Shown here: positions 295 through 17,565 of the stretch, piece by piece
Numbering within the stretch: position 1 is the first letter of the stretch
Layout: each line of letters begins with the position of its first letter
Source of the DNA: Terriglobus tenax
GTDB taxonomy: Bacteria > Acidobacteriota > Terriglobia > Terriglobales > Acidobacteriaceae
Assembly: GCF_025685395.1 (NCBI RefSeq)
Contig: NZ_JAGSYA010000004.1
Coordinates: 992,001-1,056,000, forward strand
DNA length: 64,000 nucleotides
Reading direction: 5' to 3'
Position numbers and translations under genes: made by a program
Notes under the pieces: model-generated
The model's database searches: none
Seen by the model: only the letters and a program-made list of their open reading frames with translations
What the model was told of the DNA's origin: nothing

Positions 295-347
295 ACAGTA
301 TCGCTACTGTTGCGCGGGTGACGGGAGTTGCCGGGGTACTTTACCCT
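295..347 (+). promoter_or_regulatory. Operator-like site D and promoter of the first ThuA gene
   Basis: The 16-mer ACAGTATCGCTACTGT (295-310) is a near-perfect inverted repeat and matches site B (6747-6762) at 12 of 16 positions. Seven bases later comes GTGACG (318-323, 4/6 of TTGACA), then an 18-nt spacer and TACCCT (342-347). The same operator, 7-nt gap and 18-nt spacer layout occurs at three other promoters in the first 13 kb. The predicted transcript start near 354 leaves a short leader before the GTG at 381. Confidence 0.5.
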
Positions 348-380
348 GCTTGGGCTGAATCTCCGTTTGAGGTTGTTGCT

Positions 381-1325
381 GTGAAACTACGTGTCACCTT
401 TGCCCTGCTCGCCTTCTCGTTCTTTTTCGCGAACGCACAACAGACGCAGAACCGGCAAGGGACGGCTGACCTGGGGATGCAGGACGGCATTCGCCGCGGG
501 CCGGGAATGAATGCCGCCAGCGTTGGCGACTACAGCTACCACAACAACGCCGTGCCGCATCGCAAGCGCGTGCTGGCATGGATCGATGTGAGCAACGGGT
601 ACCAGCACGACTCGATTTCACATGCCGTAGCCACGATTGAGCGGCTTGGTTATGAGACCGGCGCCTACGATACGTTTATCCGTACCGACTCAAAGATGAT
701 CACCAAGGGGGCAGTGAACGGGAGCGATGGAAAGCCTTTGCTCTATTCCAAAAACCTGAATGACTACGATGCGATCTTCTTCTTTGGGGTGCGCGAGATT
801 GATCTGACACCGGAGCAGCGCGCCGACCTGTTGTCGTTTGTACACGATGACGGCAAGGGCTTTGTGGCGGCACATGCCGGTGCGACTGCCTTCTTCTCGT
901 GGCCAGAGTTTGGCGAAATGCTGGGCGGCCGGTTCGATGAGCATCCGTGGGGCATTACCGAGGCTCCGGTGATTGTGGAAGACCCGAAGTTCCCCGGTAT
1001 GACAAACCTTCCGGCATCGTTCGCTCACATTGACGAGTACTACCAGATCAAGGATTTTTCGCGGAGCAAGGCACGTGTGCTGCTGCGGCTGGATGTGTCA
1101 GGGCTGGATAAGAACATGCCGCTGGTGCATCACAAGGATGATGACTTCCCGCTGGCGTGGGCGAAGATGTATGGCAAGGGACGAGTTTATTATTCGGCCC
1201 TGGGGCACGACCCCAGCACATGGGACGACCGTGTAGTGCAGCAGATGTATTACGAGGCGATTCGCTGGGCGTTGAAGCTGACAGATGCAGAGCTTGCACC
1301 GCGGGCGTTTCCGGCTTCCAAGTAA
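381..1325 (+). CDS. ThuA-domain secreted protein (copy 1)
   Basis: A 314-residue protein of the ThuA family (Pfam PF06283, a class I glutamine-amidotransferase-like/flavodoxin-like fold first linked to trehalose use; the biochemical role is unknown). The GTG at 381 is preferred to an upstream ATG at 261 because it is preceded by TTTGAGG and opens a clean signal peptide (KLRVTFALLAFSFFFANAQ). After the signal come 'AWIDVSNGYQHDSISHAVATIERLG' type beta-alpha units, 'DAIFFFGVREIDLT', 'GKGFVAAHAGATAF' and 'GRVYYSALGHDP' near the C-terminus, as in other ThuA proteins. The same blocks occur in the paralogue at 12859-13857. It lies beside the pckG copy and downstream of site D. The substrate is not recognisable. 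Confidence 0.85.
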   Translation: MKLRVTFALLAFSFFFANAQQTQNRQGTADLGMQDGIRRGPGMNAASVGDYSYHNNAVPHRKRVLAWIDVSNGYQHDSISHAVATIERLGYETGAYDTFIRTDSKMITKGAVNGSDGKPLLYSKNLNDYDAIFFFGVREIDLTPEQRADLLSFVHDDGKGFVAAHAGATAFFSWPEFGEMLGGRFDEHPWGITEAPVIVEDPKFPGMTNLPASFAHIDEYYQIKDFSRSKARVLLRLDVSGLDKNMPLVHHKDDDFPLAWAKMYGKGRVYYSALGHDPSTWDDRVVQQMYYEAIRWALKLTDAELAPRAFPASK

Positions 1326-1383
1326 TTCTCTCTGATTGTTTTGCGGCCCTTCATGCGGCATGTCTGAAGCCGCGCCTTAAAGG

Positions 1384-3138
1384 TCACGAAGACAGACCGA
1401 GCTGGCGGTAAAGCGCGGTGAAGCGATGGTCTTCGCGGACATTGTCGAAACGGGGATCGATGCGGATGGTGACCAGCTCGAAGCAGCGGTCCTGAAATGC
1501 TTCTGCGAGACGCTCAAAGCCCTCGTCCATTCTGCCCAAGGCAAAATGGATCAGTGCCAGCTCAAACGGCGAGATGTAGCGACGCGTTGACAGATCATTC
1601 AGGTCACGGAGAAGACGCAGCGCTTCCTGCTTTCGTCCGGAGATTGCATAGGTCCTCGCCAGTGCACCGACGACACGCGGGTTGGGCGGTGCGAGCTCGA
1701 TGGCGCGCTGAAACGCGGCGATGGCCTCCTCCCATTCTTCGCGCTGTTCCTGCACCAGACCAAGTGTCCAGTAGGCGGCGGAGAAGTGCGGATTCTGTTC
1801 GATGGTGTAATCGCTCTGCTCCAGCGCCAGATCGTATTCGCGGCGGAAATGATGGATCTGCGCGAGGTCGCGCGAGATAATCGACGACACAGGATCAAGA
1901 CTCTGCGCCATGGTGACCTCCTGCAGCGCCTCATCCAGGCGGCCCAGCGGAACCAGACAGGACATCGCGTACCAGTGGTGTGCGGTCGAGTTACGAGGAC
2001 TGAGGCGGATCGCTCGCCGGAACTCCTGCTCTGAGCCGTCCCAGTCCCAGTCCTGCACGGCCTTTACGTGCGCCAGCGAGGTATGGGCGTCGCTGCATTC
2101 CTCGTCGAGAAGCAAAGCGTGCGCGGCGTTCGAGGCCGTCTTGGTCCAGATTTCCATGGGGGCAGAGACACCGTAGTTCGCCATGAGCAGTTGTGCGTCC
2201 GCCATGCCGGCGTATGCCTGGGCGAAGCCGGGGTCTTCTTCAATGGCCTTCTGGAAGTACTCCATGGCTTTGCGCAGGCCACCTTCGGTACGCTGACTCA
2301 TCTGGTAGCGACCCTGCAGGTACATATTGTTGGCCGCCAGGCTGCCGACCTTGGAATGGAGACTATTGCGGCCGTCGCCTCCTACGAGTTCCGAGCGCAA
2401 TGTCTCGGCGACAACGGAGGCGACCTCCTCCTGTACCTGGAAGGGAGCTCCGCGCTTGCGGTCGATGACGTCAGACCACAGAATGGAACCGCGCATGGCG
2501 TCGCCGATCTGCGTGGTGATGCGCCAGATATCATTCGCCTTGCGAACGCTGCCGCTGACGACGAGCGCCGCTGACGGCGATCCGGAGGGCTGCGGCGCAT
2601 TGCTGTCGATGACGACGATTGAGCCGACCTTCGAGAGGGCGTGCACGATTTCACTGGCGAGGCCGCGGCAAAAATATCCCTCGTCTCCGGAAGGACTGCA
2701 ATCCTCAAAGACCTGCACGGCAACGGTGTTGCGGCTAACCAGCGCAGGAGCCAGGGAACGCCTCTTCGGTGTGTGCTCAACCTTACGGAAGGTGGGTGCG
2801 TACCCACCCTTCGGCAGCTCAATGACGAGTTCGTCCGCCTGCCCTTCTTCCTGGTAGTAGGTCACCAGGCGCATGCGCAGACGTCTGGCCTGCACGCGGA
2901 CGATCGGGTCCATGCGCGGGTCGAAGCTGGATTCCTTGCCAAAAACATCGACGCCAACGGGATATTCCTTGAGCTGGTCGCCACGTCCTGCAAGCGTCTC
3001 CTCCACGATGAAACTGAGGAAGCGCTGGAGGCGGTCGCCCTGGCGGAAGGCCTTGCTGGCAATAATCTTCTGCAGCTCCTGGCGAATGGCGTCGTCGAAG
3101 CTGGTGGTCTCGTCGGTGGTTTGCGGTTTCACAGGCAC
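1384..3138 (-). CDS. Winged-helix-like N-terminal domain, FlgO/TolB-like domain and TPR protein (putative regulator)
   Basis: About 584 residues if started at the GTG at 3138; an ATG at 3246 would add an unlikely basic/aromatic leader. Residues about 10-125 are a winged-helix-like module often found in acidobacteria (LQRFLSFIVEETL, then EYPVGVDVF, then DPIVRVQARRLRMRL, then ELPKGGYAPTF), resembling OmpR-type wings with a conserved Arg-rich helix. A FlgO/TolB-N-like alpha/beta segment follows (NTVAVQVFEDCSPSGDEGYF...LVVSGSVRKAND). The C-terminal half has about six TPR units (YLQGRYQMSQRTEGGLRKAMEYFQKAIEEDPGFAQAY...). No membrane segment is seen. The layout resembles CadC-like regulators but is cytosolic. 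It is divergent from the ThDP enzyme gene with operator-like site A between them, so a role as regulator of this locus is a fair inference, not shown. Confidence 0.75.
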   Translation of the reverse strand: MPVKPQTTDETTSFDDAIRQELQKIIASKAFRQGDRLQRFLSFIVEETLAGRGDQLKEYPVGVDVFGKESSFDPRMDPIVRVQARRLRMRLVTYYQEEGQADELVIELPKGGYAPTFRKVEHTPKRRSLAPALVSRNTVAVQVFEDCSPSGDEGYFCRGLASEIVHALSKVGSIVVIDSNAPQPSGSPSAALVVSGSVRKANDIWRITTQIGDAMRGSILWSDVIDRKRGAPFQVQEEVASVVAETLRSELVGGDGRNSLHSKVGSLAANNMYLQGRYQMSQRTEGGLRKAMEYFQKAIEEDPGFAQAYAGMADAQLLMANYGVSAPMEIWTKTASNAAHALLLDEECSDAHTSLAHVKAVQDWDWDGSEQEFRRAIRLSPRNSTAHHWYAMSCLVPLGRLDEALQEVTMAQSLDPVSSIISRDLAQIHHFRREYDLALEQSDYTIEQNPHFSAAYWTLGLVQEQREEWEEAIAAFQRAIELAPPNPRVVGALARTYAISGRKQEALRLLRDLNDLSTRRYISPFELALIHFALGRMDEGFERLAEAFQDRCFELVTIRIDPRFDNVREDHRFTALYRQLGLSS

Positions 3139-3200
3139 CGCACGATAGTACACAACCTTTTGAGAACGGTGCCAGCAGATTAGGTTGCCGTAAAACGCCG

Positions 3201-3253
3201 ACCGTGCCAACACCGTAACACTGTTGAAGCCAACAGGAAGCGGCACCTAGAAT
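3201..3253 (+). promoter_or_regulatory. Operator-like site A and promoter of the ThDP-enzyme gene
   Basis: ACCGTGCCAACACCGT (3201-3216) matches site C (12740-12755) at 15 of 16 positions. After 7 nt comes TTGAAG (3224-3229), an 18-nt spacer and TAGAAT (3248-3253). The predicted transcript start is near 3260, only a few bases before the ATG at 3263, so the mRNA may be almost leaderless; in agreement, no Shine-Dalgarno sequence is visible. The operator sits upstream of the -35, a position more typical of an activator than a repressor. Confidence 0.55.
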
Positions 3254-3262
3254 CCATGCTCT

Positions 3263-5068
3263 ATGGTTCTGAAAATCGAAGACGCCCCGATCGCACCCGC
3301 AAAACCGTACGGCCACGTTTTGACGAAAACTCCTCCACCCCCGAAGGAAGGCTATCGCATTGCCGCCTATCAGCTGGTGGACTACCTTGAGCTGCTGGGC
3401 GTCGAGGTGGTTTTTGGCCTGTGCGGCCACACGGTCATCGCCATGCTGGATGCGCTGGGGAAGAACCAGAAGGTCAGGTTCATTACCACGCGTCATGAAC
3501 AGACCGCGGCCCATGCGGCCGATGGCTACGCACGGGCCTCGGGAAAGGTGGGCGTGGTGCTGAGTCACCTGGGGCCGGGACTGACGAACGCGGCAACCGG
3601 AGTCGCGAATGCCGCGCTGGATTCCGTACCGATGGTGGTCATCGCGGGCGATGTGCCTTCCTATTACTACGGCCGCCACCCTCATCAAGAGGTAAACCTG
3701 CATGCGGATGCCGACCAGAGCCAGATTTACCGGCCGTTCTGCAAGCGGGTCTATCGCGTTGACCGCGTGGAGGATCTGCCACGCGCCGTGGAGCGCGCCT
3801 TCTACCTGGCACAGTCAGGACGCCCGGGACCGGTACTGGTGGATGTGCCGATGGACATCTTCTCGGCCGACCTGAAGGAAGGCTCGTTCTCAAAGACACC
3901 GCCGAAGCTGAGCAAGCAGGCCATCGATCCCGAGTCGGTTGAGTACATTATTGATGCGCTGGCGAATGCCGAGCGCCCTGTTCTGTACGCCGGGGGGGGC
4001 GTACTTTCTTCGAAGTCCACGAAGGAACTGCAGCGACTGGCGGAGGCCCTGGAACTGCCGGTGGCCCATACGCTGATGGGCAAAGGCTGTATGCCGGAAG
4101 AGCATCCGCTGCTGATGGGGCAGACCGGCTTCTGGGGCATCCCGGTCTCAAACGAGATGTGCCGCACAGCCGACCTGATCCTGGCGGTGGGCACGCGGCT
4201 GGCCGAGGCGAATTCGAGTTCGTGGGAGCCGGAGTTCACGTTTGATTCGCCGCGACTGATTCACATTGATATCGATCTTGCCGAGATTGGCCGCAACTAC
4301 CAGACGGAACTTGGCGTGATTGCGGATGCGAAGGTGGCGCTGACCTCACTTGCCGATGCTGCCCAGGGCCGAGAGCACAAGCCGCGCCCCGGCATGCGCG
4401 AGAAGATTGCCACAGGCCGCAAAGAATTCAGCGACCTGTGGGCCGAGGAGTGGAGCTCTGACCAGTATCCGCTGCGGCCGGAGCGGATACTTTCTGAGCT
4501 GCGCAAGGCTGTTCCGGATGACGGCTTTATTGTGACCGACGTGGGATGGAACAAGAATGGTGTGGCGCAGCAGTTCAAGTTCCCTGTTCCCGGGACCTTC
4601 ATTACGCCCAGTGGACTGGCAACGATGGGTTTTGGACCTGCGGCGGTACTGGGGGTGAAATATGCCCAGCCCGAACGCGTGGCGCTGGCGCTGATTGGCG
4701 ATGGCGCCTTCAGCAGCAATCCGGGAGTGATTGCCACGGCGATGGAGGCAGGGCTTCCCTGTATCTGGCTGGTAATGGACAACTCGGCCTTCGGTACGAT
4801 TGCCGGCCTGGAAAAGATGCATTACGGCTGGAGCTTTGGCTGCCTGTTTGAGTGCAATGGCGAGACCTATAACGTGGACTACGCCAATATCGCCCGGTCG
4901 TATGGCGCGCGCGGCGTCTATATCAAGTCAGCCGCGGAGCTGGGACCGGCGCTGCGCGAGGCGATTGAATCCAAGATGCCGACAGTGATCCAGGTGCCCA
5001 TGGAGAACGCTCCTACGCCGACGCCAGGCCACTGGAACATCAATGACATTTACCGTAATGGTGAATAA
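3263..5068 (+). CDS. ThDP-dependent enzyme of the acetolactate synthase-like family
   Basis: A 601-residue thiamine diphosphate enzyme with the usual three domains. The PYR domain includes the catalytic glutamate E79 in 'TTRHEQTAAHAADGYAR' and the 'HLGPGLTNAATGVANA' loop. The central domain spans about 220-370 ('AERPVLYAGGGV'). The C-terminal PP domain has the ThDP/Mg motif GDGAF (about 479) through MDNSAF (about 508). Relatives include acetolactate synthase, 2-hydroxyacyl-CoA/oxalyl-CoA lyases, glyoxylate carboligase and sulfoacetaldehyde acetyltransferase; 'GLCGHTVIAMLDAL' and 'YYYGRHPHQEVNLH' do not match any of these well enough to name a substrate. It has no regulatory subunit gene beside it, so a catabolic lyase or decarboxylase is more likely than a biosynthetic ALS. 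It faces the winged-helix/TPR gene and is followed by a strong terminator. Confidence 0.85.
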   Translation: MVLKIEDAPIAPAKPYGHVLTKTPPPPKEGYRIAAYQLVDYLELLGVEVVFGLCGHTVIAMLDALGKNQKVRFITTRHEQTAAHAADGYARASGKVGVVLSHLGPGLTNAATGVANAALDSVPMVVIAGDVPSYYYGRHPHQEVNLHADADQSQIYRPFCKRVYRVDRVEDLPRAVERAFYLAQSGRPGPVLVDVPMDIFSADLKEGSFSKTPPKLSKQAIDPESVEYIIDALANAERPVLYAGGGVLSSKSTKELQRLAEALELPVAHTLMGKGCMPEEHPLLMGQTGFWGIPVSNEMCRTADLILAVGTRLAEANSSSWEPEFTFDSPRLIHIDIDLAEIGRNYQTELGVIADAKVALTSLADAAQGREHKPRPGMREKIATGRKEFSDLWAEEWSSDQYPLRPERILSELRKAVPDDGFIVTDVGWNKNGVAQQFKFPVPGTFITPSGLATMGFGPAAVLGVKYAQPERVALALIGDGAFSSNPGVIATAMEAGLPCIWLVMDNSAFGTIAGLEKMHYGWSFGCLFECNGETYNVDYANIARSYGARGVYIKSAAELGPALREAIESKMPTVIQVPMENAPTPTPGHWNINDIYRNGE

Positions 5069-5120
5069 CTGCCGAGCCAACGCCTCCGGCATGGCAGTGC
5101 AAGTCTCCTAACGACCATTG

Positions 5121-5153
5121 AGCGGAAGATCGATCTCGATCTTCCGCTTTTTA
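5121..5153 (+). terminator. Intrinsic terminator after the ThDP-enzyme gene
   Basis: A perfect 12-bp stem (AGCGGAAGATCG at 5121-5132 paired with 5137-5148), a 4-nt loop and a run of T (5148-5152). It lies 52 bases after the stop at 5068 and before the convergent MFS gene. Confidence 0.85.
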
Positions 5154-5240
5154 TCTGACCCCAGCGGTTGAAGCCACATTCTCTATTGCACAGGTGCGAC
5201 GCGGCTAAAGCTGTGCCCTGACGAGGCATGCAAATGCGGA

Positions 5241-5278
5241 TCTCTCCACTACGAGCTTCGCGCTCCGGTCGAGATGAC
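5241..5278. repeat. Dispersed intergenic repeat, copy 1
   Basis: This intergenic stretch shares CTCCACTACG, a GCGCT core and CGAGATGAC in the same order with 9208-9242, also intergenic. Both copies sit just downstream of the terminator of a gene of the same locus. The element looks like a small dispersed intergenic repeat; no coding potential or clear hairpin was seen. Confidence 0.5.
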
Positions 5279-5306
5279 AACCCTTCGCCGTTTTATCGAA
5301 AAGCGC

Positions 5307-6632
5307 CTAGCACTGACGGCAGCCGGTTTCGCGGGTCAGGCTGAGCAGAAGGACAGAGACCGTCAGCCAACTCACGATCAACACGAAGGCAAGCTGGTAG
5401 GCGTGCATGTCATAGACATGGACACCTTTGTTGAGGGCACCGCTCCAGTTGCGGTCCAGGATCAGACCGATTGCGGGCTGCAGAATGGTAGGACCGACCA
5501 TGTTGCCGATATTGACCGTGCCGGAGATAGAACCCATATATTGCGGAGGCACTGATTCCTTGGCGTAGGCGAAACCGATGACCACGGCACCGCTGGCAAC
5601 ACTGGTAATGGCTGCGATAGCGATAAAGAACGGAAGTGTCAGGCCGGGAAGATAAAAGACCGAGGCCCATCCCAGGAGCGCAACCAGGGTACCGCCCACA
5701 TAGAGCGGCTTGCGACGGCCGATGCGATCGCTCATGGCGCCGAAGATGGGGCTGGCCACCGCCCAGCAGACGATCATGACGGAGCAGACCTCGGCGGCGG
5801 TGGTGGGCTGCAGACCGAAGCGGGCGCGGAGGTAGGGCGCCCCCCACAGGCCGGTGAACGAGAGGATGGAGCCGACGATACCGCCCTGGGCCAGGAAGAT
5901 AAGCCAGGTATTGCGGAAACCGAAGATGCGGCCGAACCCTTTCAGCCGCTCCAGGAAGGTACTGTCGCTGGCGTGAAAGCTTACCTGCGCGTAGCTGTCG
6001 TATCCGCGGTCGCGGGGATCGTTCCGGACGATGAAGTAGGTAAAGATGGCGATTGCGAGCACGCCGAGCGACGAGGCGATGACCACGGGTCTCCAGCCGA
6101 AGGTCTGGATGCCAAGCCGCAGCGGCACCTGGGCTCCCAACGCTCCCAGGTTGCCGAAGAGAAGGCCGAGTCCGGAGAGCATGGCGAACCGTTTCGCCGG
6201 GAACCAGCGTCCCGCCAGGGTAAGGAGCGTGACCCACGCAACGGCCGTGGAAGCACCCACCATCGCCCGGCCCAGGCAGGCGACGGCAAAGTTGCTGGTG
6301 GAGCCGAAGAGAAACGTGCCCGCGGCGGCGATGACGGCGCCGGTCATCAGCAGACGGCGAGGGCCCCAGGAATCAATCAGGATGCCGGTCGGGATCTGCA
6401 TGGCGAGGTAGAAGTAGTAATAGAACCCGGCGAGGTTCCCCAGGCTGGCTGCGCCGATGGCAAAGGCGCGCATCAGCTCGTCGGTCATGACCGCGGGCGA
6501 GACGCGCTGGTAGAAGCCTGAAAGATAGAACAGCGCGGCCACGGCCCAGATGGACCAGCACAGCCAGGCGGGAGGGTAGTTTCGTATGCCCGCCGTTTCT
6601 TCGGCGGGGACTTCAATCTTCTGAATCAGCAC
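5307..6632 (-). CDS. MFS transporter
   Basis: A 441-residue major facilitator with about 12 hydrophobic segments. The MFS signature between helices 2 and 3 is visible as 'GILIDSWGPRRLL', and the repeat in the second half as 'GAMSDRIGRRKPLYVG'. The frame opens with GTG at 6632; no in-frame alternative fits a complete first helix (PPAWLCWSIWAVAALFYL). It is divergent from the citryl-CoA-lyase-like gene and convergent with the ThDP gene. The likely task is inner-membrane uptake of the small molecule metabolised by its neighbours; the substrate cannot be read from the sequence. Operator-like site B lies upstream at the standard 7-nt distance from its -35. Confidence 0.85.
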   Translation of the reverse strand: MLIQKIEVPAEETAGIRNYPPAWLCWSIWAVAALFYLSGFYQRVSPAVMTDELMRAFAIGAASLGNLAGFYYYFYLAMQIPTGILIDSWGPRRLLMTGAVIAAAGTFLFGSTSNFAVACLGRAMVGASTAVAWVTLLTLAGRWFPAKRFAMLSGLGLLFGNLGALGAQVPLRLGIQTFGWRPVVIASSLGVLAIAIFTYFIVRNDPRDRGYDSYAQVSFHASDSTFLERLKGFGRIFGFRNTWLIFLAQGGIVGSILSFTGLWGAPYLRARFGLQPTTAAEVCSVMIVCWAVASPIFGAMSDRIGRRKPLYVGGTLVALLGWASVFYLPGLTLPFFIAIAAITSVASGAVVIGFAYAKESVPPQYMGSISGTVNIGNMVGPTILQPAIGLILDRNWSGALNKGVHVYDMHAYQLAFVLIVSWLTVSVLLLSLTRETGCRQC

Positions 6633-6935
6633 GTCGGATTCCCGGTTATGGTTAGGCCTTCACGGCCTGAAAAAAGCAAGAAGCTGCACATGCTTCCAAA
6701 GTGGATGAAACCGTAACACCACGTTGATTTGAAGGGCAACGTTTGAACCGTATCGGCACGGTAGAAACGGCCTTTCAGGCGCGTCCGGGTGTTAAGCTTG
6801 GCATCTGAAATTGGTGCCTGATCGATTCCCGTTTCCCCGGTTTTCCCTGCTTTGCCGCTGCTGGGTTCAGGCTGTCCGGTTTAGGCTGTCCACGGAGTCA
6901 GAATCGCAGCACGCAGCAAACAGAATGGAGACCTG
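6633..6935. other. 303-bp divergent regulatory region
   Basis: This gap separates the MFS gene (minus) from the citryl-CoA-lyase-like gene (plus). It holds operator-like site B, the predicted MFS promoter, and a CCGTAACAC element (6711-6719) that also follows site A (3213-3221). No open frame with a ribosome binding site is seen. No good promoter for the plus-strand pair was found; TAAGCT at 6793-6798 is a weak -10 candidate. Confidence 0.6.
6710..6762 (-). promoter_or_regulatory. Operator-like site B and promoter of the MFS gene
   Basis: Read on the minus strand: ACCGTGCCGATACGGT (6762-6747), 7 nt, TTGCCC (6739-6734), an 18-nt spacer and TACGGT (6715-6710). The operator has complementary ACCGT/ACGGT arms. 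The plus-strand pair (6936 onward) could share the operator, but no matching promoter lies at the same distance on that side. Confidence 0.5.
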
Positions 6936-7706
6936 ATGGTAGAGGCGTGGCGTACAGGCATCACCACCTACGACGAGAAAAATATATGGATCCGCGGCTA
7001 TGAGGTCGGCGCATTGATGCAGCGCGCCACCTTTGCGGAGACCATTTTCCTGCTACACGCGGGCCGGATGCCCAGCCAGCAGGAGGGCAAGTTGCTGGAT
7101 GCCATCCTGATTTCATCGGCCGATCACGGTCCGGGCTCTCCGTCGGCGGCGACCGCCCGCCTGGCCTGCTCCGGCAATCGCGGCTCAGTCTCCTCCGCCA
7201 TCGCAGCCGGCATCCTGGCCATCGGCGACCAGCATGGCGGCGCGGGCATGGCATGCATGGAGACCATCGCCGAAGGTGTCGCGCTGGCAAAGACCGAGGG
7301 AGTTTCGCTGGAAGCCGCTGCTGAAATGCTGGTCGATGCTTACCGCGCACGCGGAGAACGCCTGGCCGGGATGGGACATCGTCAGCACTCGACCGACCCG
7401 CGCAAAGCGATTCTTTTCGGGATGGCCGAGAGCTATGGGCTTGCGGGAGACGGCGTGCGGTTCATGCTGGCGCTGGAGGCTGCCGTGGCCGCGAAGGTCA
7501 AGCCGCTGCCCATCAACATTGACGGCGTGCTGGCGGCAATTCTTTACGACCTCGGCTTCCCGCCCATCATGGGAAGGCTGATCTTCATCATCGGACGCAC
7601 CGCAGGCCTGAGCGCTGAGGTTGCCGAGGAGCTGGCCCGTGAGAAAGCGATGCGCATCAAGGTTCCGGTCACGTATGACGGTCCGCCGCCGCGAGACCTT
7701 CCCTAG
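6936..7706 (+). CDS. Citrate synthase-like protein, citryl-CoA lyase type (short form)
   Basis: At 256 residues this is much shorter than citrate synthase (about 430), but it keeps the catalytic trio of the superfamily: H64 in 'SADHGPGSPSAAT', H100 in 'GDQHGGAG' and D154 in 'STDPRKAI', with the 'GMGH' turn at 146-148. Short proteins of this kind are usually annotated citryl-CoA lyase; they can cleave or form C-C bonds between an acyl-CoA and a 2-oxo acid. The start has GGAG five bases upstream. It is followed after 24 bp by an acylating aldehyde dehydrogenase, so an acyl-CoA may pass between the two. The true substrate is unknown. Confidence 0.8.
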   Translation: MVEAWRTGITTYDEKNIWIRGYEVGALMQRATFAETIFLLHAGRMPSQQEGKLLDAILISSADHGPGSPSAATARLACSGNRGSVSSAIAAGILAIGDQHGGAGMACMETIAEGVALAKTEGVSLEAAAEMLVDAYRARGERLAGMGHRQHSTDPRKAILFGMAESYGLAGDGVRFMLALEAAVAAKVKPLPINIDGVLAAILYDLGFPPIMGRLIFIIGRTAGLSAEVAEELAREKAMRIKVPVTYDGPPPRDLP

Positions 7707-7730
7707 TCTTCAACCGTTTCAGGAGAAAGT

Positions 7731-9140
7731 ATGGCACCCAAGGTAATTACCGAAGAACAGAAGCAGGAAGTGCAGGAGATGGTGGCCCGCGCCAAGGTGG
7801 CGCTGGACGCGATCAAGGACTATGACCAGGCGAAGGTTGACCGCCTGTGCCAGGCGCTGGGCTGGGCCGTGGCGAATGAAGAGACCTTTACTCGTCTCTC
7901 CAACAAGAGCATCGACGAGAGCGGTCTGGGCGATCGCGAGACACGCCCCGGCAAGCGGAACAAGGTAAGCGGCGTGCTGCGCGACGTGCTGCGCCTGAAG
8001 AGCATGGGCATCATCGAAGAGATTCCGGAGAAGGGCCTGGTGAAGTATGCCAAGCCGGTCGGCGTCATTGCCGGCCTGGTTCCCGTCACGAATGCCGCGC
8101 TGACGGAGATTGTCACCGGTATCTTCGCCATCAAGGCAAAGAATGTCGTTATCTTCTCTCCGCACCCGGCCTCAAAGAACACCACCATTGAGACCGTCAA
8201 CATCATGCGTGCCGTGCTGAAGCGCGAAGGCGTTCCGGAGGATGTCTTCCAGGTGGTGGAGAAGCCGACTATCCCCGTAGCGAATGAAGTGATGGCGCAG
8301 TGCGACCTGACCATCGCCACGGGCGGCCCGGCAATGGTGAAGGCAGCGTATAGCTCCGGCAAGCCGGCCTATGGCGTTGGAGCGGGCAATGCGACCATGG
8401 TCTTTGACGAGACCACCAACGCGGAAGAGGCCGCAAGGAACACGCGCATCAGCAAGGTGCATGACAACGGGTCAGGCTGCTCGTCCGATGGCAACCTTGT
8501 CGTCGAAGCCTCGGTTTACGACGCGGTGCTTGAGAACCTGCAGAAGGAAGGCGGCTACCTGGTCTCGCCTGAGGAAAAAGTGAAGCTGCAGGCCGTGATG
8601 TGGGACGCGGAGCGTCACCGCACCTCGCCCACTATTGCCCGTCCGGCGAAGGTGATTGCAGAGCTTGCGGGCTTCTCTATCCCCGAGGGCAAGCGCTTCC
8701 TCATCGTGCCGGAGACGCATATCGGCAAGGAGTACCCGTTCTGCAGCGAGAAGCTGTCGCCGGTGCTCGCCATCTTCAAGTACAGCGGATGGGAGAACGC
8801 GCTAAAGATGGTTACCGAGATCTATAAAGTCGGCGGACGCGGTCACTCGGTGGGCATCTACAGCTTCAACGACGAGCATATCGACGAACTGGCCCGCATG
8901 GCGCCGGTAAGCCGCATCACGGTGCGCCAGCCGCAGTCGAGAGCCAACTCGGGTTCCTTCAACAATGGCATGGCGATGACCTCCAGCATGGGTTGCGGTA
9001 TCTGGGGTGGCAATATCACCAACGAGAATGTGACGTTGAAGCATTACATGCAGACCACATGGGTGAGCCGGCCCATCAAGGAAGACCGCCCTTCGGATGA
9101 AGAACTCTTTGGCGAGTTCTACAACACGCAGACGTACTAA
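7731..9140 (+). CDS. Acylating (CoA-dependent) aldehyde dehydrogenase, EutE/SauS-like
   Basis: A 469-residue member of the CoA-acylating aldehyde dehydrogenase group, which interconverts an aldehyde plus CoA and an acyl-CoA using NAD(P). The nucleophile is probably C250 in 'HDNGSGCSSDGN'; the nucleotide-binding segment is seen in 'VGVIAGLVPVTNAALTEI' and 'VVIFSPHPASKNTT'. It resembles EutE (acetaldehyde), sulfoacetaldehyde dehydrogenase SauS and the AdhE N-terminal domain. AGGAGA lies six bases before the ATG. It is co-transcribed with the citryl-CoA-lyase-like gene and ends in a strong terminator. The SauS resemblance does not imply sulfoacetate here because no sulfoacetate-CoA ligase is present. 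Confidence 0.8.
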   Translation: MAPKVITEEQKQEVQEMVARAKVALDAIKDYDQAKVDRLCQALGWAVANEETFTRLSNKSIDESGLGDRETRPGKRNKVSGVLRDVLRLKSMGIIEEIPEKGLVKYAKPVGVIAGLVPVTNAALTEIVTGIFAIKAKNVVIFSPHPASKNTTIETVNIMRAVLKREGVPEDVFQVVEKPTIPVANEVMAQCDLTIATGGPAMVKAAYSSGKPAYGVGAGNATMVFDETTNAEEAARNTRISKVHDNGSGCSSDGNLVVEASVYDAVLENLQKEGGYLVSPEEKVKLQAVMWDAERHRTSPTIARPAKVIAELAGFSIPEGKRFLIVPETHIGKEYPFCSEKLSPVLAIFKYSGWENALKMVTEIYKVGGRGHSVGIYSFNDEHIDELARMAPVSRITVRQPQSRANSGSFNNGMAMTSSMGCGIWGGNITNENVTLKHYMQTTWVSRPIKEDRPSDEELFGEFYNTQTY

Positions 9141-9159
9141 GTAACCTGACGATGGAATG

Positions 9160-9195
9160 GGCCCCGTGCAATGAGCATGGGGCCTTTTCTTTTTG
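9160..9195 (+). terminator. Intrinsic terminator after the aldehyde dehydrogenase gene
   Basis: GGCCCCGTGC (9160-9169) pairs with GCATGGGGCC (9175-9184) with one G-T pair and a 5-nt loop, followed by TTTTCTTTTT. Confidence 0.85.
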
Positions 9196-9207
9196 CTCGA
9201 GAGACAA

Positions 9208-9242
9208 GTCGCTCCACTACGTTGCGCTTCGGGCGAGATGAC
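9208..9242. repeat. Dispersed intergenic repeat, copy 2
   Basis: Second copy of the element described at 5241-5278; CTCCACTACG and CGAGATGAC are exact and the middle differs by small substitutions and indels. Confidence 0.5.
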
Positions 9243-9260
9243 GCTACTTTGCTTTAAATA

Positions 9261-9294
9261 GCCACGGCCCGAGCGTTGCATGCGCGGGCCGTGG
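9261..9294 (-). terminator. Hairpin terminator after the TonB receptor gene
   Basis: CCACGGCCC (9262-9270) pairs perfectly with GGGCCGTGG (9286-9294). On the minus strand the stem is followed by CTATTTAAA, a weak U-rich tail. Confidence 0.5.
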
Positions 9295-9318
9295 GGTGAA
9301 GCCGCTTGCTTGCGGCAG

Positions 9319-12300
9319 TTAGAAGATGTACTTGCCGGCGAACTGCATGATGCGTGGATCCTGTGCGCTGGTAATGTAACCGAACTGCGAGCTGTTGAGC
9401 GCACTGGTCGGGTTGTTCAGATTGGTGTGGTTGAAGATGTTGAAGGTCTCCCAGCGGAACTGGAACTTCTGTGATTCGGTGACCTTGAACTCACGCGACA
9501 CCGACATATCGACGTTCCAGTAAGCAGGCCCGTGAAGCGTAAGCGGACGCGTGGTGGCGTAGGTTCCGGTGGTTGCCGCCGTGAACGAAGCCTTATTCAA
9601 CACATTGGTGATCAAGCCGTTCGCAACACCATACTTCACCATGGAGTTGTAAGGATTGCCTGTTGTCCAGGGCATCTGGTTGCCGATGCCCGAGAGCGCA
9701 TTGTCCACACCACTGGTCACAGTGAAGTAGCCTCCGCTGCGCGCCGTGAAGATATTAGAGAGGCCCCAACCACCGAAGATCGCATTGACGAAGCGTTCCT
9801 GGAAGTGCGGCCCTGTCAGGATCGACGACACGTTCAGCAGGTGGCGGCGGTCCGAATCGCAGTTGGAGTAGCTGAGGTCGCGCCGACCGGGAATGACATA
9901 GGCCGGACCTGTAAGCTCCGTGGTGTTGGCCTGGCCAAGGCAGTGCGACCAGGTGTAGTTGGCTACCAGGTTCACCGTCTTTGCGCGGCGGTTTACTGAA
10001 AGCAACATGCCGTTATAGTTCGCTGCTCCGCCGTCATCCAGCTGTCCTATGGTGGCGTAGTACTGACCGTTTGCCAGATTGGCATTTGTCAGCACGCGGC
10101 GGTTGTTGGTATTGCTGGTGGTCGAGCAGTTTCCGGAAGAAGGCACCAGCGACGTCTGCATGCCGGGGCACCCGGTGGTTGCCTTAGTACCGGCAATGTA
10201 AACGGCCGGGTTGAGTTCGTAGGCCGAGGTCAGGTGAGTCGTCTTGTTTCCCAGGTAAGTTGCTCCCAGGAGCCAGCGGCCATACTGCTTCTGGATGGCC
10301 AGGTTCCACTGCTGCAGATACATCTGCTTCAGATTGATGGGCGCGTTGACATAGACACCGCCCTTAACAAACGGAGTTGTCGGCGTGAGGGTAGCAAGCG
10401 CCGGAAAAGGATTGCTGCCGTAGCTTACCCATGGGTTTGCCAGATCATTGGTATCCGTCACCGTGACTGTCTGGCCCCACGGCGGCGAGTTAGAGTAGCG
10501 GGTGAAGAAGAACATCTGCGGCGAATCAAAGAACATGCCATAGCCACCACGGATGGACATCGTGCCGTCCTTTGACGGATCCCATATGAAGCCGACGCGG
10601 GGCTGGAAGCCGCTGAAGACCTTGCCCTGGTTGTAGGAACGTCCCGGATATCCAGGATCACCGGGGAAGGTAAGGCCAGCCGGAGCGTTCAGGTACTGGT
10701 TGCTCTTGGTGCCTGCAAGGAAGCGGGTCATATCGAAGTTCTGCGCGTGGCTGTCCACGTTGTAGAACGGGATATACGGCTCCCACCGCAGGCCATAGTT
10801 GAGGGTGATGTGATTGCTGGCGCGCCAGGAGTCCTGCGCATAAAGCGCCACGTAGTGCCAGCGATCGTTCTCGTAATCGGCGTTGCCCTGGTTGAAGGTG
10901 GCAATCTTCCCTGCGAAGAAATCCGCATAGCCCAGCGTGTTAGCACCGTAGACGGTTCCGTTGAAGGTATACGCACCGTTCGTCGGGCGGTTGTTGACCG
11001 TGTTCATGTAGGCGAACAGGTACTGACCTCCGAAGGCGATCGAGTGCTTGCCGCGGACGACCGTAACGTCATCGCCGAGCTGGTACTTCACCGTATTGAA
11101 GTAGCCGGGGTTGTTGCCTCCCTGTCCCAGCGAGAAGCCGTTGGTGATGCTGATGCCCATGAAGCCTTCGAGGCCCGGCTTGGTATAGGCGTTGATGCCC
11201 ACCGACTGCGGATCAAAGAACGGAGCCAGGAAGCGCAGGCCCACCGTTCGGCTACCGGTGATGCGCAGCGAGTTCACCACGTTGGGCGAAAGGATGTACG
11301 TGTGGCCCAGCGTCAGCGCATGAACGCGGTTCAGCTGGCCCACCTGGTTGGCCGTCAACACGTTCTTCGGATCAACAGTCACCGGAGCATTGAAGCGGGC
11401 GAAGATATAGCGGCCGAAGATGGTCTGCTTGGAGTTTACCGAGTAATCCACACGGCCTACGGCGTCCTGGCGGGTTGAGTTCTGCGAGTAGCGAATGGGG
11501 AGCGCACTTCCGCATGTGCTGACCAGAGGGATTCCCTTGTTGATGATGTTCTTCGCCTGCGTGCTGACCTGTGACGCCGGCATCTTGTTGGCGACGTAAG
11601 GACCGGTCAAAACCGCAGAGCAATCAGAGAAGTCGCCATTCAGCATGTTCGCTGTCGGCAGAATCACGTTCGTGGGATTGCTGAGCTGGCGAACAACAGT
11701 GCCCTGGTAGCCGCCGAAGAAGAAGAGCTTGTCCTTCTTGATAGGACCACCGATCACACCACCATACTGATTGCGCTTCAGGTTGTCCTGCTGCTTTGCT
11801 CCGTTGATGTAGTTGAAGTAGTTCGCCGCGTTGAACATGTAATTGCGGACGAAGTAAAAGACATCGCCGTGGAACTGGTTTGAGCCGCCTTTGGTGACGG
11901 CATTGATAGCCGCCGATGCGTGGTTGCCGTACTGCGCGGGCAGCGAACTGGTCTCTGACTTGAACTCCTGCAATGCATCCGGAAACGGCAGCGGTAGATT
12001 CAGGTTGTTGAAGACGTCATTATGGTTGCCGCCGTCCAGGACATAGGCAACACCATTGGCCAGACCGCCCGACACCGCGATGGTAATCGTAGGAAAATTC
12101 TTGTTGGTGTTCAGATCGCCAGCCGGAGCAGGAGTTGTTGCACCGGCGAGGGCGATGAGCTGTGTTGGATCGCGGCCATTGAGCGGCAGTTCCACCACCT
12201 GCGTACGGTCGATGACCTGCCCGACGCCATTGCTTACCGTCTCAACAGAGACGCCTGCTGTTGACTCCACGTTGATCACATCGGTGACGCTGCCGAGCGA

Positions 12301-12627
12301 CAGCTTTACATCCACATCGGCATTGCTGCCTACCTGCAGAACGACACCGGACACGGTCGAGGTTTGAAAACCCTGCATCGTGACCTGGATCTTGTATGGG
12401 CCGAGCGGCAGATCAGGGGCGCTGTACGAGCCGTCGGTTGTCGTCTGCACGGTGCGGGTCAGGCCCGTATCTGTCTGCGTCAGAACGACCACTGCTCCTG
12501 GCACACCGGCTCCGGTTGGGTCCTGCACGATACCGTTGATCCGGGAAGTATTCAATGACTGCGCCCATGCAGATACACAACACATGAGCATTACAACAAG
12601 GAAGCCATATATTTTTTTCGTTTGCAT
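9319..12627 (-). CDS. TonB-dependent receptor, Oar-like, with carboxypeptidase regulatory-like domain
   Basis: About 1102 residues. The ATG at 12627 follows GAGGACGTG; a GTG one codon earlier is less likely. The signal peptide is MQTKKIYGFLVVMLMCCVSAWAQ. Residues about 25-110 form a carboxypeptidase regulatory-like fold (INGIVQDPTGAGVPGAVVVL...GSYSAPDLPLGPYKIQV). A plug follows (VVELPLNGRDPTQLIALAGA), then a large beta-barrel ending in a terminal phenylalanine (FAGKYIF), the usual outer-membrane insertion signal. Such receptors take up oligosaccharides, peptides or other large substrates. It is divergent from ThuA copy 2 and has a well-formed promoter with operator-like site C, suggesting it feeds the same pathway as the MFS and lyase genes. 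Confidence 0.9.
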   Translation of the reverse strand: MQTKKIYGFLVVMLMCCVSAWAQSLNTSRINGIVQDPTGAGVPGAVVVLTQTDTGLTRTVQTTTDGSYSAPDLPLGPYKIQVTMQGFQTSTVSGVVLQVGSNADVDVKLSLGSVTDVINVESTAGVSVETVSNGVGQVIDRTQVVELPLNGRDPTQLIALAGATTPAPAGDLNTNKNFPTITIAVSGGLANGVAYVLDGGNHNDVFNNLNLPLPFPDALQEFKSETSSLPAQYGNHASAAINAVTKGGSNQFHGDVFYFVRNYMFNAANYFNYINGAKQQDNLKRNQYGGVIGGPIKKDKLFFFGGYQGTVVRQLSNPTNVILPTANMLNGDFSDCSAVLTGPYVANKMPASQVSTQAKNIINKGIPLVSTCGSALPIRYSQNSTRQDAVGRVDYSVNSKQTIFGRYIFARFNAPVTVDPKNVLTANQVGQLNRVHALTLGHTYILSPNVVNSLRITGSRTVGLRFLAPFFDPQSVGINAYTKPGLEGFMGISITNGFSLGQGGNNPGYFNTVKYQLGDDVTVVRGKHSIAFGGQYLFAYMNTVNNRPTNGAYTFNGTVYGANTLGYADFFAGKIATFNQGNADYENDRWHYVALYAQDSWRASNHITLNYGLRWEPYIPFYNVDSHAQNFDMTRFLAGTKSNQYLNAPAGLTFPGDPGYPGRSYNQGKVFSGFQPRVGFIWDPSKDGTMSIRGGYGMFFDSPQMFFFTRYSNSPPWGQTVTVTDTNDLANPWVSYGSNPFPALATLTPTTPFVKGGVYVNAPINLKQMYLQQWNLAIQKQYGRWLLGATYLGNKTTHLTSAYELNPAVYIAGTKATTGCPGMQTSLVPSSGNCSTTSNTNNRRVLTNANLANGQYYATIGQLDDGGAANYNGMLLSVNRRAKTVNLVANYTWSHCLGQANTTELTGPAYVIPGRRDLSYSNCDSDRRHLLNVSSILTGPHFQERFVNAIFGGWGLSNIFTARSGGYFTVTSGVDNALSGIGNQMPWTTGNPYNSMVKYGVANGLITNVLNKASFTAATTGTYATTRPLTLHGPAYWNVDMSVSREFKVTESQKFQFRWETFNIFNHTNLNNPTSALNSSQFGYITSAQDPRIMQFAGKYIF

Positions 12628-12702
12628 CACGTCCTCACACTGGCTGAGAGCAAATTCCTTCCTTCATCTACAGAAGGAGTCCTGTTCCTCAATCGGAAGC
12701 GG

Positions 12703-12755
12703 ATGCTAGGCGGCACCTTTTTAAGGTGTCAATACAATTACCGTGCCAATACCGT
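12703..12755 (-). promoter_or_regulatory. Operator-like site C and promoter of the TonB receptor gene
   Basis: On the minus strand: ACGGTATTGGCACGGT (12755-12740), 7 nt, a perfect TTGACA (12732-12727), an 18-nt spacer and TAGCAT (12708-12703). On the plus strand the site reads ACCGTGCCAATACCGT, differing from site A at one base. The ThuA copy 2 gene lies on the other side, but no -35 is seen at the same distance in that direction. Confidence 0.6.
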
Positions 12756-12858
12756 TCACAAAAGGTATTAACTTTGGGCTGCATGCTAGCATCACGACCG
12801 GCAACGGAATGCCATCTGGCGAGTGTTAGAGCGCACTGCCAGCAAGGAGAAGGAAGCA

Positions 12859-13857
12859 ATGAAGAAAGGCAGTTTATTGCGGCTTGCAACGATTCTGGCC
12901 GTACTCGCAGTTCCTGCAATCTGCAGTGCGCAGGCAGCAGCTCCGGAGGCAGGATGCCCGGCGCCCGGGGCACGCGGACCTCGTCCTGGTGGCCCGGCCG
13001 GAGGACCTCCGGGTGGCGCAAGACCTGCCGGACCTCCGCCGGAAGCGGCTGCCCCTTCCGGGCCTCCGAAGAAGCGCCTGCTGATCTGGGCTGACACCCG
13101 GAATGGCATCGCGCAGCATGATATTGCGCATGCCATCGCCGTCATTGAAGAGATTGGCTATAAGTCGGGCGCCTATGACACATGGATCCGCACCGACTCC
13201 AACATCATTTCGCGGAACCCCAAGATGACCACGGGCGAGCCGGCCAGCGGCGGCCCCAGCCTCTGCAATGTGGATGCTATCTTCTTTCTTGGTCACCGCG
13301 AGATTGCCCTGGAGGATCAGCAGAAAACTGACCTGCTGTGGTTCGTGCATGACGCAGGCAAAGGCTTTGTGGCGGCGCATACCGGAACCACGGCTTTTCT
13401 TTCGTGGCCGGAGTTCGGGGAACTGCTGGGCGGGCGTTTCGACCAGCATCCGTGGGGAACGACCGAGGGAACGGTTCTTGTTACCGACCCGAAGTTTCCC
13501 GGAATGGCCCAGTTTGGCCCCAGCTTCACCATCAAAGATGAGTTTTACCAAAGCAGCGGATTCTCTCCGGAGAAGAGCCGCGTTTTGATGCGGCTGGATA
13601 CGACCAAGCTGAACAACGACCCCAAGCGCGGCGTAAAGGCTGAAGACTACCCGTACGCCCTTACGTGGGCAAAGACGTATGGGAAGGGTCGAGTGTTCTA
13701 CTCCACCTTTGGGCACGCTCCGGTTATCTGGGACAACCCTAAAATCCAGGAGATGTATCTGCAGGCGATCAAGTGGGCGCTGGGAGAGACCGATGCCGAT
13801 GTCTCGCCCATTCCGATGCCGCCTCCCGCTCCGGGCGCGCTTCCAAGTCAGCCGTAA
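12859..13857 (+). CDS. ThuA-domain secreted protein (copy 2)
   Basis: A 332-residue ThuA-family protein. The ATG at 12859 is preferred because AAGGAGAAGGAAGCA precedes it and it opens a signal peptide (KKGSLLRLATILAVLAVPAICSAQA). A low-complexity Pro/Gly/Ala linker (about residues 30-70) comes before the ThuA domain, which shares long blocks with copy 1: 'RTDSNIISRNPKM', 'DAIFFLGHREIALE', 'GKGFVAAHTGTTAFLSWPEFGELLGGRFD' and 'GKGRVFYSTFGHAP'. It is divergent from the TonB receptor. Secretion suggests that both ThuA proteins act in the periplasm or outside on the material taken up by the receptor; function is unknown. Confidence 0.85.
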   Translation: MKKGSLLRLATILAVLAVPAICSAQAAAPEAGCPAPGARGPRPGGPAGGPPGGARPAGPPPEAAAPSGPPKKRLLIWADTRNGIAQHDIAHAIAVIEEIGYKSGAYDTWIRTDSNIISRNPKMTTGEPASGGPSLCNVDAIFFLGHREIALEDQQKTDLLWFVHDAGKGFVAAHTGTTAFLSWPEFGELLGGRFDQHPWGTTEGTVLVTDPKFPGMAQFGPSFTIKDEFYQSSGFSPEKSRVLMRLDTTKLNNDPKRGVKAEDYPYALTWAKTYGKGRVFYSTFGHAPVIWDNPKIQEMYLQAIKWALGETDADVSPIPMPPPAPGALPSQP

Positions 13858-13941: not shown

Positions 13942-15279
13942 TTATTCGAAGCGCAGAGCTTCAATCGGATTCAGCTTGGAGGCTCTTCGTGCCGGATAGA
14001 AGCCAAAGAAGACACCGGTCGCCGCCGCAATTCCGAAAGCCAGAGCAACAGCCGTAGGCGATACCGTGGCATCCCACTGCAAGGTGCGGCTGATGGTAAA
14101 GGCGGCCAGGTATCCCAGGATGATGCCGAAGACACCGCCGGCAAGCCCGAGCGTCACAGCCTCTGTCAGGAACTGCATCAGCACGTCATACTGACGTGCT
14201 CCCACGGCGCGGCGAATGCCGATCTCACGGGTTCGTTCTGTGACCGAGACCAGCATGATGTTCATGATGCCGATGCCGCCCACGATCAGCGAGATGGTAG
14301 CGATGGCGGCCAGGAGGGCCGTCATCGTCTGTCCGGCACGGTTCAGCGTACCGGACATCTCCTGCATATTGACCTGGTCCATCTGAGGCATGTTCGCCAG
14401 GATGAACGCGGCAACCGAGGTGTTCAAGCCCTTGGTCAGAGCTTCAGACGCCTGGGTTTTCACGGTGAAGTCATCGGCGCTTGCTGTGCCGCCGCCCGGG
14501 CCGGCAAGGTTTGACGCCTTCGGGGCGGTCGCCATTTTGTGACGTGAGCGCAGAACCGTGGTCACGTTCTGCGAGATTTCCGAGGCGCGGCCAGCTTCCT
14601 CCGCCGAAAGCATGATGTTCGCCAGGTAGTTGACGCCGAGCATCTTCTGCAGCTTGGTGTAGGGGACAATCGCCATCTGGGACTGCTCTTCGTCGTTGGT
14701 GGTGAAGACGCCCTTTACCTTGAACTTTTCTCCGTGAATCTCAATCTCTTCGCCAATCGGGTCAGATCCTGCAAAGAGATTGTCACGCAGCGCGCTTCCA
14801 ATGACAACGACGTTGTCCGCATCGTCGACATTGCCCTTCTTGAAGAACTTGCCCTTCTCAAAGCCCCAGTCGTACATGGAAGCGTAGTCCGCACTGACGC
14901 CATACACCTGCACGTAGCTTTTCTCGGTTCCATAGCCAACCCATCCCCGCATGCGGGAGACGGGAGAGACGTAGGCCACGCCATCGACCTGGCGAATGGC
15001 TTCCGCATCGTCCGGAATCAGAGTTGTTGCCGAACCAAGTCCAGTGGCGATTTTGGAGTCTTCTCCGCCGCGGGTAAAGTTACCTGCGCGGACGTTGATC
15101 AGAGTCGTGCCCGCGGACTTCACGTCTTTGGAGACGCTCTGCTGTGCTCCGGTTCCGAGGGCAAACATGGTGAGCACGGCCGCAACACCGATCGTCATGC
15201 CCAGCATGGCGAGCCCGGTACGCAGTTTGTTGACCTTCAGGGCTTTGACTGCAATTTTGAAGCTCTTTTTGATGATCAT
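13942..15279 (-). CDS. MacB-like ABC transporter permease (second permease of operon)
   Basis: A 445-residue permease of the FtsX/MacB family. The N-terminal helix is 'LRTGLAMLGMTIGVAAVLTMFALGTGAQ', a periplasmic MacB_PCD-type domain spans about 50-310, and three C-terminal helices include 'VGGIGIMNIMLVSVTERTREIGIRRAVGAR'. The ATG at 15279 overlaps the preceding stop by one base (TGATG), so translation is probably coupled. It probably pairs with the upstream permease as a heterodimer around the ATPase encoded at 16742-17497. MacB-type transporters are mechanotransmitters that work in the periplasm, typically exporting peptides, toxins or lipoproteins. Confidence 0.85.
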   Translation of the reverse strand: MIIKKSFKIAVKALKVNKLRTGLAMLGMTIGVAAVLTMFALGTGAQQSVSKDVKSAGTTLINVRAGNFTRGGEDSKIATGLGSATTLIPDDAEAIRQVDGVAYVSPVSRMRGWVGYGTEKSYVQVYGVSADYASMYDWGFEKGKFFKKGNVDDADNVVVIGSALRDNLFAGSDPIGEEIEIHGEKFKVKGVFTTNDEEQSQMAIVPYTKLQKMLGVNYLANIMLSAEEAGRASEISQNVTTVLRSRHKMATAPKASNLAGPGGGTASADDFTVKTQASEALTKGLNTSVAAFILANMPQMDQVNMQEMSGTLNRAGQTMTALLAAIATISLIVGGIGIMNIMLVSVTERTREIGIRRAVGARQYDVLMQFLTEAVTLGLAGGVFGIILGYLAAFTISRTLQWDATVSPTAVALAFGIAAATGVFFGFYPARRASKLNPIEALRFE

Positions 15280-17497: not shown

Positions 17498-17565
17498 AAA
17501 TCTCGTGTCCTTTGCCTGAAGGGATGAAGCCATGCCTGGTGCCAGAGATGGCGTGTTAAGGAGCC

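Follow-up and report, generated by a model that had tools for sequence, protein, structure and literature searches.

One-component activators of the HilA/EilA and CadC/ToxR type carry an OmpR-type winged helix, which in HilA is accompanied by a TPR-like C-terminus. The boxes bound by PhoB and OmpR are 11-bp direct repeats, the usual period of OmpR/PhoB-type domains. Operators of the LacI type are 16-bp palindromes with a central CG/YR step, and LacI proteins mostly repress. Among catabolic systems, the sulfoacetate cluster sauSTU-xsc and the peg-type clusters of TonB receptor, major facilitator superfamily (MFS) transporter and dehydrogenase are known. In the present study, a window of 64,000 nucleotides of Terriglobus tenax (G000:C4:992001-1056000, from a genome of 4.36 Mb) was analysed, in which one symmetric operator, TWACNGTRNYRNYACNGTWA, is common to four sites named D, A, B and C. 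With a probability of roughly three in four, these sites are the operators of a single cluster-specific activator, most likely the protein REG, which is encoded beside operator A.

The operator resembles PhoB/OmpR boxes in its 11-bp period, and the DNA-binding domain of REG is assigned to that family; it differs from them in that the half-site is self-complementary and the site is symmetric and centred near -51.5, with the -35 element not replaced. The length, symmetry and central YR step are those of LacI operators, whereas no consistent LacI gene is found here and the geometry is that of an activator. In the proposed mechanism, a REG dimer would bind the symmetric site of 16-20 bp and, with its centre some 51-52 bp before the transcription start, would recruit RNA polymerase to promoters made of a weak -35 and a TANNNT -10 element, the latter 30 or 31 nt past the operator. 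Given the symmetry of the site, each of B and C would serve two divergent promoters, those of the MFS transporter and of the genes for a citryl-CoA-lyase-like enzyme (CCL) and an aldehyde dehydrogenase (ALDH), and those of the TonB receptor and the second ThuA gene (ThuA2). Operator A would drive the gene of a thiamine diphosphate (ThDP) enzyme only, and D the first ThuA gene (ThuA1). The gene set would form an uptake-plus-breakdown unit for one substrate, switched on when the substrate or a product is present, perhaps sensed by the TPR half of REG.

Four operators, their rarity and their conservation

The four 16-mers listed in the preliminary description of this DNA were confirmed at D (295..310, ACAGTATCGCTACTGT, 22.7 bits), A (3201..3216, ACCGTGCCAACACCGT, 17.0 bits), B (6747..6762, ACCGTGCCGATACGGT on the minus strand, 21.2 bits) and C (12740..12755, ACCGTGCCAATACCGT, 23.4 bits), with a one-base difference between A and C. 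Its layout of 7 nt between motif and -35 and 18 nt between -35 and -10 was also recovered at every site. The proposed elements are GTGACG and TACCCT (342-347) on the plus strand from D toward ThuA1, a weak promoter; TTGAAG (3224-3229) and TAGAAT (3248-3253) on the plus strand from A toward the ThDP gene; TTGCCC (6739-6734) and TACGGT (6715-6710) from B toward the MFS gene; and TTGACA (12732-12727) and TAGCAT (12708-12703) from C toward the TonB receptor gene. The layouts at B and C run on the minus strand, a strand missing from that description. On their plus-strand sides, a -10-like TAAGCT (6793-6798) lies beyond B toward CCL-ALDH and a -10 TAGCAT (12787-12792) beyond C toward ThuA2, while on the REG side of A no -10 is present at +30/31. 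The arrangement ACNGT-N6-ACNGT gives the operator its 11-bp period, and since ACNGT is its own reverse complement the operator is also an 11-bp direct repeat. Weak further matches in the window at 6710 (12.6 bits), 12723 (12.1 bits) and about 3304, inside the ThDP gene (13.2 bits), are not regarded as operators. The first two were retained among the 101 operator-gene pairs and the 35 sites between divergent genes described below, and one -10 in the ThuA2 count is a chance contribution from 12723.

The strict core pattern ACNGTRNNNNYACNGT occurs at nine places in the genome, four of them D, A, B and C; read backwards, it occurs at 16. At least four of nine places falling within 12.5 kb has a binomial P of 8e-9 if the places are treated as random, a value that merely ranks the effect because the pattern was picked after the sites were seen. 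Of the other five places, four fall within open frames that, counted from stop to stop, have 205 to 508 codons; the fifth is in no open frame longer than 100 codons. With zero mismatches, WACNGTRNYRNYACNGTW is listed in the genome only at D, B and C; one mismatch adds A and 10 others, which are scattered over the genome. Up to two mismatches to site C are found at seven genome places, C, A and B among them, and up to three at 47.

The closest relatives by the cluster proteins are Acidobacteriota. Searching with the ThDP protein gave at least 79 loci (best 80 matches), and whole-genome searches added G005, G012, G051, G042, G046 and others, the duplicates G042 and G046a being removed before counting. 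The strict pattern ACNGTRNNNNYACNGT was found at 45 places in 588 kb of the 31 loci with REG, ThuA or TonB relatives versus four in the 953 kb of remaining loci, and three of those four fall in the acidobacterial loci L052 and L058. None of the 49 strict places lies inside a matched cluster gene, and six control patterns gave 0-6 places per locus set. The sequence ACAGTAGCGATACTGT, the exact reverse complement of D, stands upstream of the ThuA1 orthologue in G012 and of a TonB gene in L051, and D is therefore no stray match. For the later comparisons, 39 acidobacterial loci (L052, L058 and the new L201, L203, L204, L206, L207 and L209 included) were set against 51 others. A symmetric matrix of 20 bp, with the strict sites as its training set, detected further sites and placed 86 of 168 cluster promoters above the 99th percentile of column-permuted matrices versus 1 of 98 in the 51 other loci, a comparison that is partly circular because the training sites are counted in it.

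The motif is thus kept upstream of the same genes across Acidobacteriota when orthologous intergenic regions are compared, as the preliminary description had proposed to do. Chance is also an unlikely source of the shared motif, as four of its nine genome places lie here and the related genomes confirm it independently. The -35 and -10 hexamers are loose and easily found in a single sequence, which would favour a chance resemblance of short promoter-like words; conservation refutes this explanation, genome rarity, spacing and co-occurrence with REG also speak against it, and its probability is negligible.

Promoter spacing and two-way use of the operator

The geometry was analysed for 101 operator-gene pairs from sites above 12 bits in the 39 loci, undeduplicated unless stated. 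The spacing is independent of the matrix, which stops 2 bases past the 16-mer. TANNNT starts at +30 or +31 past the operator in 59 of 101 pairs, the background being about 0.92 per offset, and TTG starts 7 nt past it in 31 of 101, the mean at other offsets being 1.84. After removal of pairs more than 60% alike, the counts were 51/93 and 27/93. By gene, the -10 stands at +30/31 for TonB in 23/33, ThuA2 in 11/17, ThDP in 8/13, CCL in 6/14, ALDH in 5/6, MFS in 4/5, ThuA1 in 2/6 and REG in 0/7 pairs; the TTG at +7 is contributed by TonB (19), ThDP (7), MFS (4) and ALDH (1) and by no other gene. Divergent cluster genes flank 35 operators; a -10 is present on both sides of 14 of these, on a single side of 17 and on neither side of four. 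The window's own operators B (MFS/CCL) and C (TonB/ThuA2) belong to the two-sided group and A (ThDP/REG) to the one-sided group.

An operator at a fixed distance from the predicted promoter at many promoters, by which a class-I/II-like activator regulon is recognised, is therefore found here at the level of sequence. The fixed spacing put forward in the preliminary description stands far above background over the relatives but does not extend to the ThuA1 promoters, of which only two of six, the window's being one, have the -10 at +30/31. The six carry TANNNT at +30, +31, +41, +41, +50 and +51, about one helical turn per step, which is a descriptive observation. To the four predicted promoters named there, of ThuA1, the ThDP enzyme, MFS and TonB, two would be added, as B and C carry a -10 on both sides and probably also drive CCL-ALDH and ThuA2, respectively; the four operators would then make six promoters.

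A repressor operator, for REG or another protein, could also be considered, the fixed distance then being a legacy of the promoters' common ancestry instead of a mark of activation. Many of the promoters are indeed orthologous, and several in G005 and G012 are near-copies. However, the same spacing is seen at unrelated genes (TonB, MFS, ThDP, CCL, ALDH, ThuA2) and also to the left and right of a single operator, the operator lies entirely upstream of the -35, and the steps of about 10 bp at the ThuA1 promoters (+30/31, +41, +50/51) are, descriptively, those of contact with one face of the DNA; repression is for these reasons considered unlikely. Activation by one factor centred near -52, as suggested earlier, fits the conserved spacing, from which the operator centre is predicted to lie some 51-52 bp before the start. 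In the ThDP gene the first ATG comes 10 nt after the end of the predicted -10 (window 3248-3263); the transcript may therefore lack a leader, or the correct start may be a more internal one.

REG as the candidate activator

REG (1384..3138, minus strand) is predicted to combine an N-terminal OmpR-type winged helix with C-terminal TPRs and is the candidate activator. Its GTG start at 3138 is assigned by inference, the open reading frame (ORF) being open to 3246. The C-terminus is TPR by Pfam. The N-terminus gave no match to PF00486 (Trans_reg_C) for REG at E 0.001, nor for 15 members of the N-domain at E up to 10 with HMMER filters on. The relationship is provided by a bridging ORF of the same genome, G000:C3:1227192-1227470, which matches PF00486 above the cut-off (32 versus 26.2 bits) and the REG N-domain profile with E 1.8e-15 (5.8e-18 versus the set of 15) and carries VRVHISRLRRKL. 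Through this ORF the REG N-domain is tied to Trans_reg_C and is, by profile comparison, an OmpR-type winged helix. Its segment FDPRxDPIVRVQARRLR is invariant but for x in 15 of 15 aligned members. Four further proteins of the genome have a REG-type N-domain (C3:1227192-1227470, C4:2846994, C4:356439 and C3:628801), and this domain, unrecognised by Pfam in REG itself, may deserve a model of its own.

The presence of the operator follows that of REG. Of 37 loci with REG present, either in the locus itself or elsewhere in the genome, 29 carry at least one site scoring above 15 bits, and these sites number 69. In genomes searched and found REG-free, such a site was present in none of four loci (L033, L034, L037, L043), whose ThDP enzyme is 72-75% identical, and it was present in one of 48 loci (L105) from genomes outside the search for full-length REG. 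The REG N-domain profile was applied to 14 of the 48 genomes, and 11 were without the domain, that of L105 included. Class-wide, the strict operator followed by TTG occurs in 5 of 14 REG-bearing genomes versus 7 of 385 others (Fisher P 1.7e-5), and all eight such sites in the five genomes lie within 10 kb of REG. As four of the five (G000, G005, G179, G353) helped define the motif and only G373 is independent on the REG side, the class-wide weight rests on the rarity in the 385 genomes. In G244, one of the seven other genomes, nine identical copies of AACAGTAGTGCCACAGTAATGCCTTTG stand on nine contigs; these are probably a repeated or mobile element that matches the operator pattern by accident. 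When the other ORFs of at least 130 aa were clustered, no second regulator-like family was seen by eye in four or more loci, a floor that a shorter regulator would escape; the families in four or more loci were a PQQ dehydrogenase (20), a cytochrome-like family, named by eye (5), and an HMGL-like family (4).

Several observations weigh against REG as the activator of these operators. Eight of the 37 REG-bearing loci, several of them contig fragments, are without a site above 15 bits, and sites below this value were scored in L040 (14.0 bits), L055 (13.9) and L031 (10.8). L046 has sites, but the only REG relative seen in its genome is a partial one (34%). In L105 a single site lies 1.7 kb from the ThDP gene although the genome lacks even the REG N-domain, and this site is for that reason read as an exception or chance. 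In the genomes of L073, L099 and L106 some protein contains the N-domain, yet their loci have no site above 15 bits. Searched alone, the REG N-terminus gave no Pfam match for the window member; among the 15 members the lowest E was 0.018, the families differing, and the single PDB match had E 0.97. In the REG direction of A-type sites the activation geometry is absent in all seven cases; there is therefore no autoactivation signature, and REG may be constitutive. Related sequences inflate the counts throughout.

The central YR step, present in 42 of 52 sites, fits LacI-type sites too and likewise stands against REG; a LacI-family or other unlinked regulator would then bind the operator and REG would have another role. 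The genome has 10 LacI-HTH matches (9 over the cut-off), but none lies inside the 12.5 kb cluster. A LacI-HTH was not found in every operator-bearing genome, being absent from 4 of 22 searched, and three of those without it (harbouring L036, L041 and L054; metagenome bins of unstated completeness) carry strong operators. The rigid upstream position also suits an activator, and operator presence tracks REG. A LacI-type regulator is disfavoured and improbable, and the winged-helix/TPR protein REG is the best candidate activator from the sequence evidence. A LacI-family HTH match occurs in the window at about 58503-58637 (G000:C4:1050503-1050637), 46 kb from the operators.

Gene set, possible substrate and known systems

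The cluster opens with ThuA1 (381..1325, plus strand), a ThuA-domain protein (PF06283, E 1.2e-38) that looks secreted by eye. The ThDP-dependent enzyme (3263..5068, plus) belongs to the acetolactate-synthase-like superfamily and lies below the cut-offs of the best 25 of 53 model matches; acetolactate synthase identity was rejected (TIGR00118, 425 versus a cut-off of 538). The MFS transporter (5307..6632, minus) matches PF07690 with E 7.9e-34. CCL (6936..7706, plus) scores 259.7 bits with NF004869, above the cut-off of 212. The CoA-acylating ALDH (7731..9140, plus) is SauS/EutE-like, and SauS identity was not accepted, as NF047625 gave 452 bits, below the equivalog cut-off of 600. The TonB-dependent-type outer-membrane receptor (9319..12630, minus) shows CarboxypepD_reg and OMP_b-brl_4 (PF25183, E 6.8e-188), and ThuA2 (12859..13857, plus) is a second ThuA-domain protein (PF06283, E 1.7e-32). 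Further downstream, ORFs for two MacB-like permeases and one ABC ATPase were recognised by eye (window 13942-17533), outside the regulon.

The 51 operator-poor loci, whose ThDP relatives are mostly 55-63% identical (five 71-75%) and which include at least two near-duplicate pairs, gave an indication of the substrate. A 3-dehydroquinate-dehydratase-like or shikimate-dehydrogenase-like gene is present in 42/51 of them versus 4/39 acidobacterial loci, and either of those or an AP_endonuc_2-type gene in 45/51 versus 6/39 (raw counts); examples were verified by family scans. In Bacillota and Proteobacteria, ThDP/CCL relatives (L091, L088, L099, L056, L081 and others) adjoin such quinate/shikimate-type and AP_endonuc_2-type genes. 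The related clusters suggest, as a hypothesis, quinate- or shikimate-like acids and a ring-cleaving, CoA-dependent route. The low counts of 4/39 and 6/39 weigh against a hydroaromatic route in the acidobacterial loci themselves. A PQQ dehydrogenase is present in 23/39 acidobacterial versus 2/51 other loci, and for the one member scanned the best model was glucose/quinate/shikimate TIGR03074, at 397.8 below the cut-off of 832.65. Outside the window, G000:C4:1643319-1645259 (L251, L281) is orthologous to the PQQ dehydrogenase of the G005 cluster, with 82% identity, and has only a degenerate operator half-match of 5.6 bits, with TATCCT, by manual count, at +31. An HMG-CoA-lyase-like (HMGL) gene occurs in L044, L052, L057, L059 and L060, none with a CCL match, and is a possible non-orthologous replacement of CCL.

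It is tentatively proposed, and must be regarded as doubtful, that the regulon controls an undescribed non-aromatising hydroaromatic-acid route, which a HilA-like one-component activator would switch on at symmetric operators that work in both directions. A periplasmic PQQ dehydrogenase would oxidise the ring of quinate or shikimate, the ThDP enzyme would cleave a hydroxy-ketone (acyloin) ring bond, the acylating ALDH would make a citryl-CoA-like thioester, quinate being a cyclic analogue of citrate, and the citryl-CoA-lyase-like enzyme would release acetyl-CoA and a 2-oxo acid. If the substrate is quinate or shikimate, this would add to the biological routes for hydroaromatic acids, which are abundant in plants, one that bypasses protocatechuate.

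To our knowledge, few acidobacterial regulons have a defined operator. For the present one, the motif, the spacing rule, the gene set and a candidate regulator are ready for direct testing, and the regulon provides a functional context for proteins of the ThuA and winged-helix/TPR types and for the TonB receptors of Acidobacteria. No account of this operator was found in open-licence PMC papers by title and start of abstract; the nearest in organism, as judged from the same parts, is an omics study of Granulicella sp. WH15 (PMC7074687). A regulon with its own operator is of a familiar type, and this one appears undescribed in the papers searched. Like HilA/EilA and CadC/ToxR, REG is predicted to have an N-terminal OmpR-type winged helix, together with a TPR C-terminus, and its best NCBIfam match is the HilA/EilA model (residues 195-438, 62 bits). 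REG was rejected as HilA itself, the score being 62 bits versus a cut-off of 589 and the match lying outside the DNA-binding domain; unlike HilA, REG stands in a catabolic cluster and its proposed target is symmetric and bidirectional. The sau cluster shares with this locus an acylating aldehyde dehydrogenase next to an MFS transporter and a ThDP enzyme, but here the ThDP enzyme has no Xsc model among the best 25 of 53 matches and CCL is extra. A sulfoacetate pathway was rejected on the model scores, that of ALDH lying below the SauS cut-off. The peg-type clusters are matched in the TonB receptor with an MFS transporter and, in relatives, a PQQ dehydrogenase.

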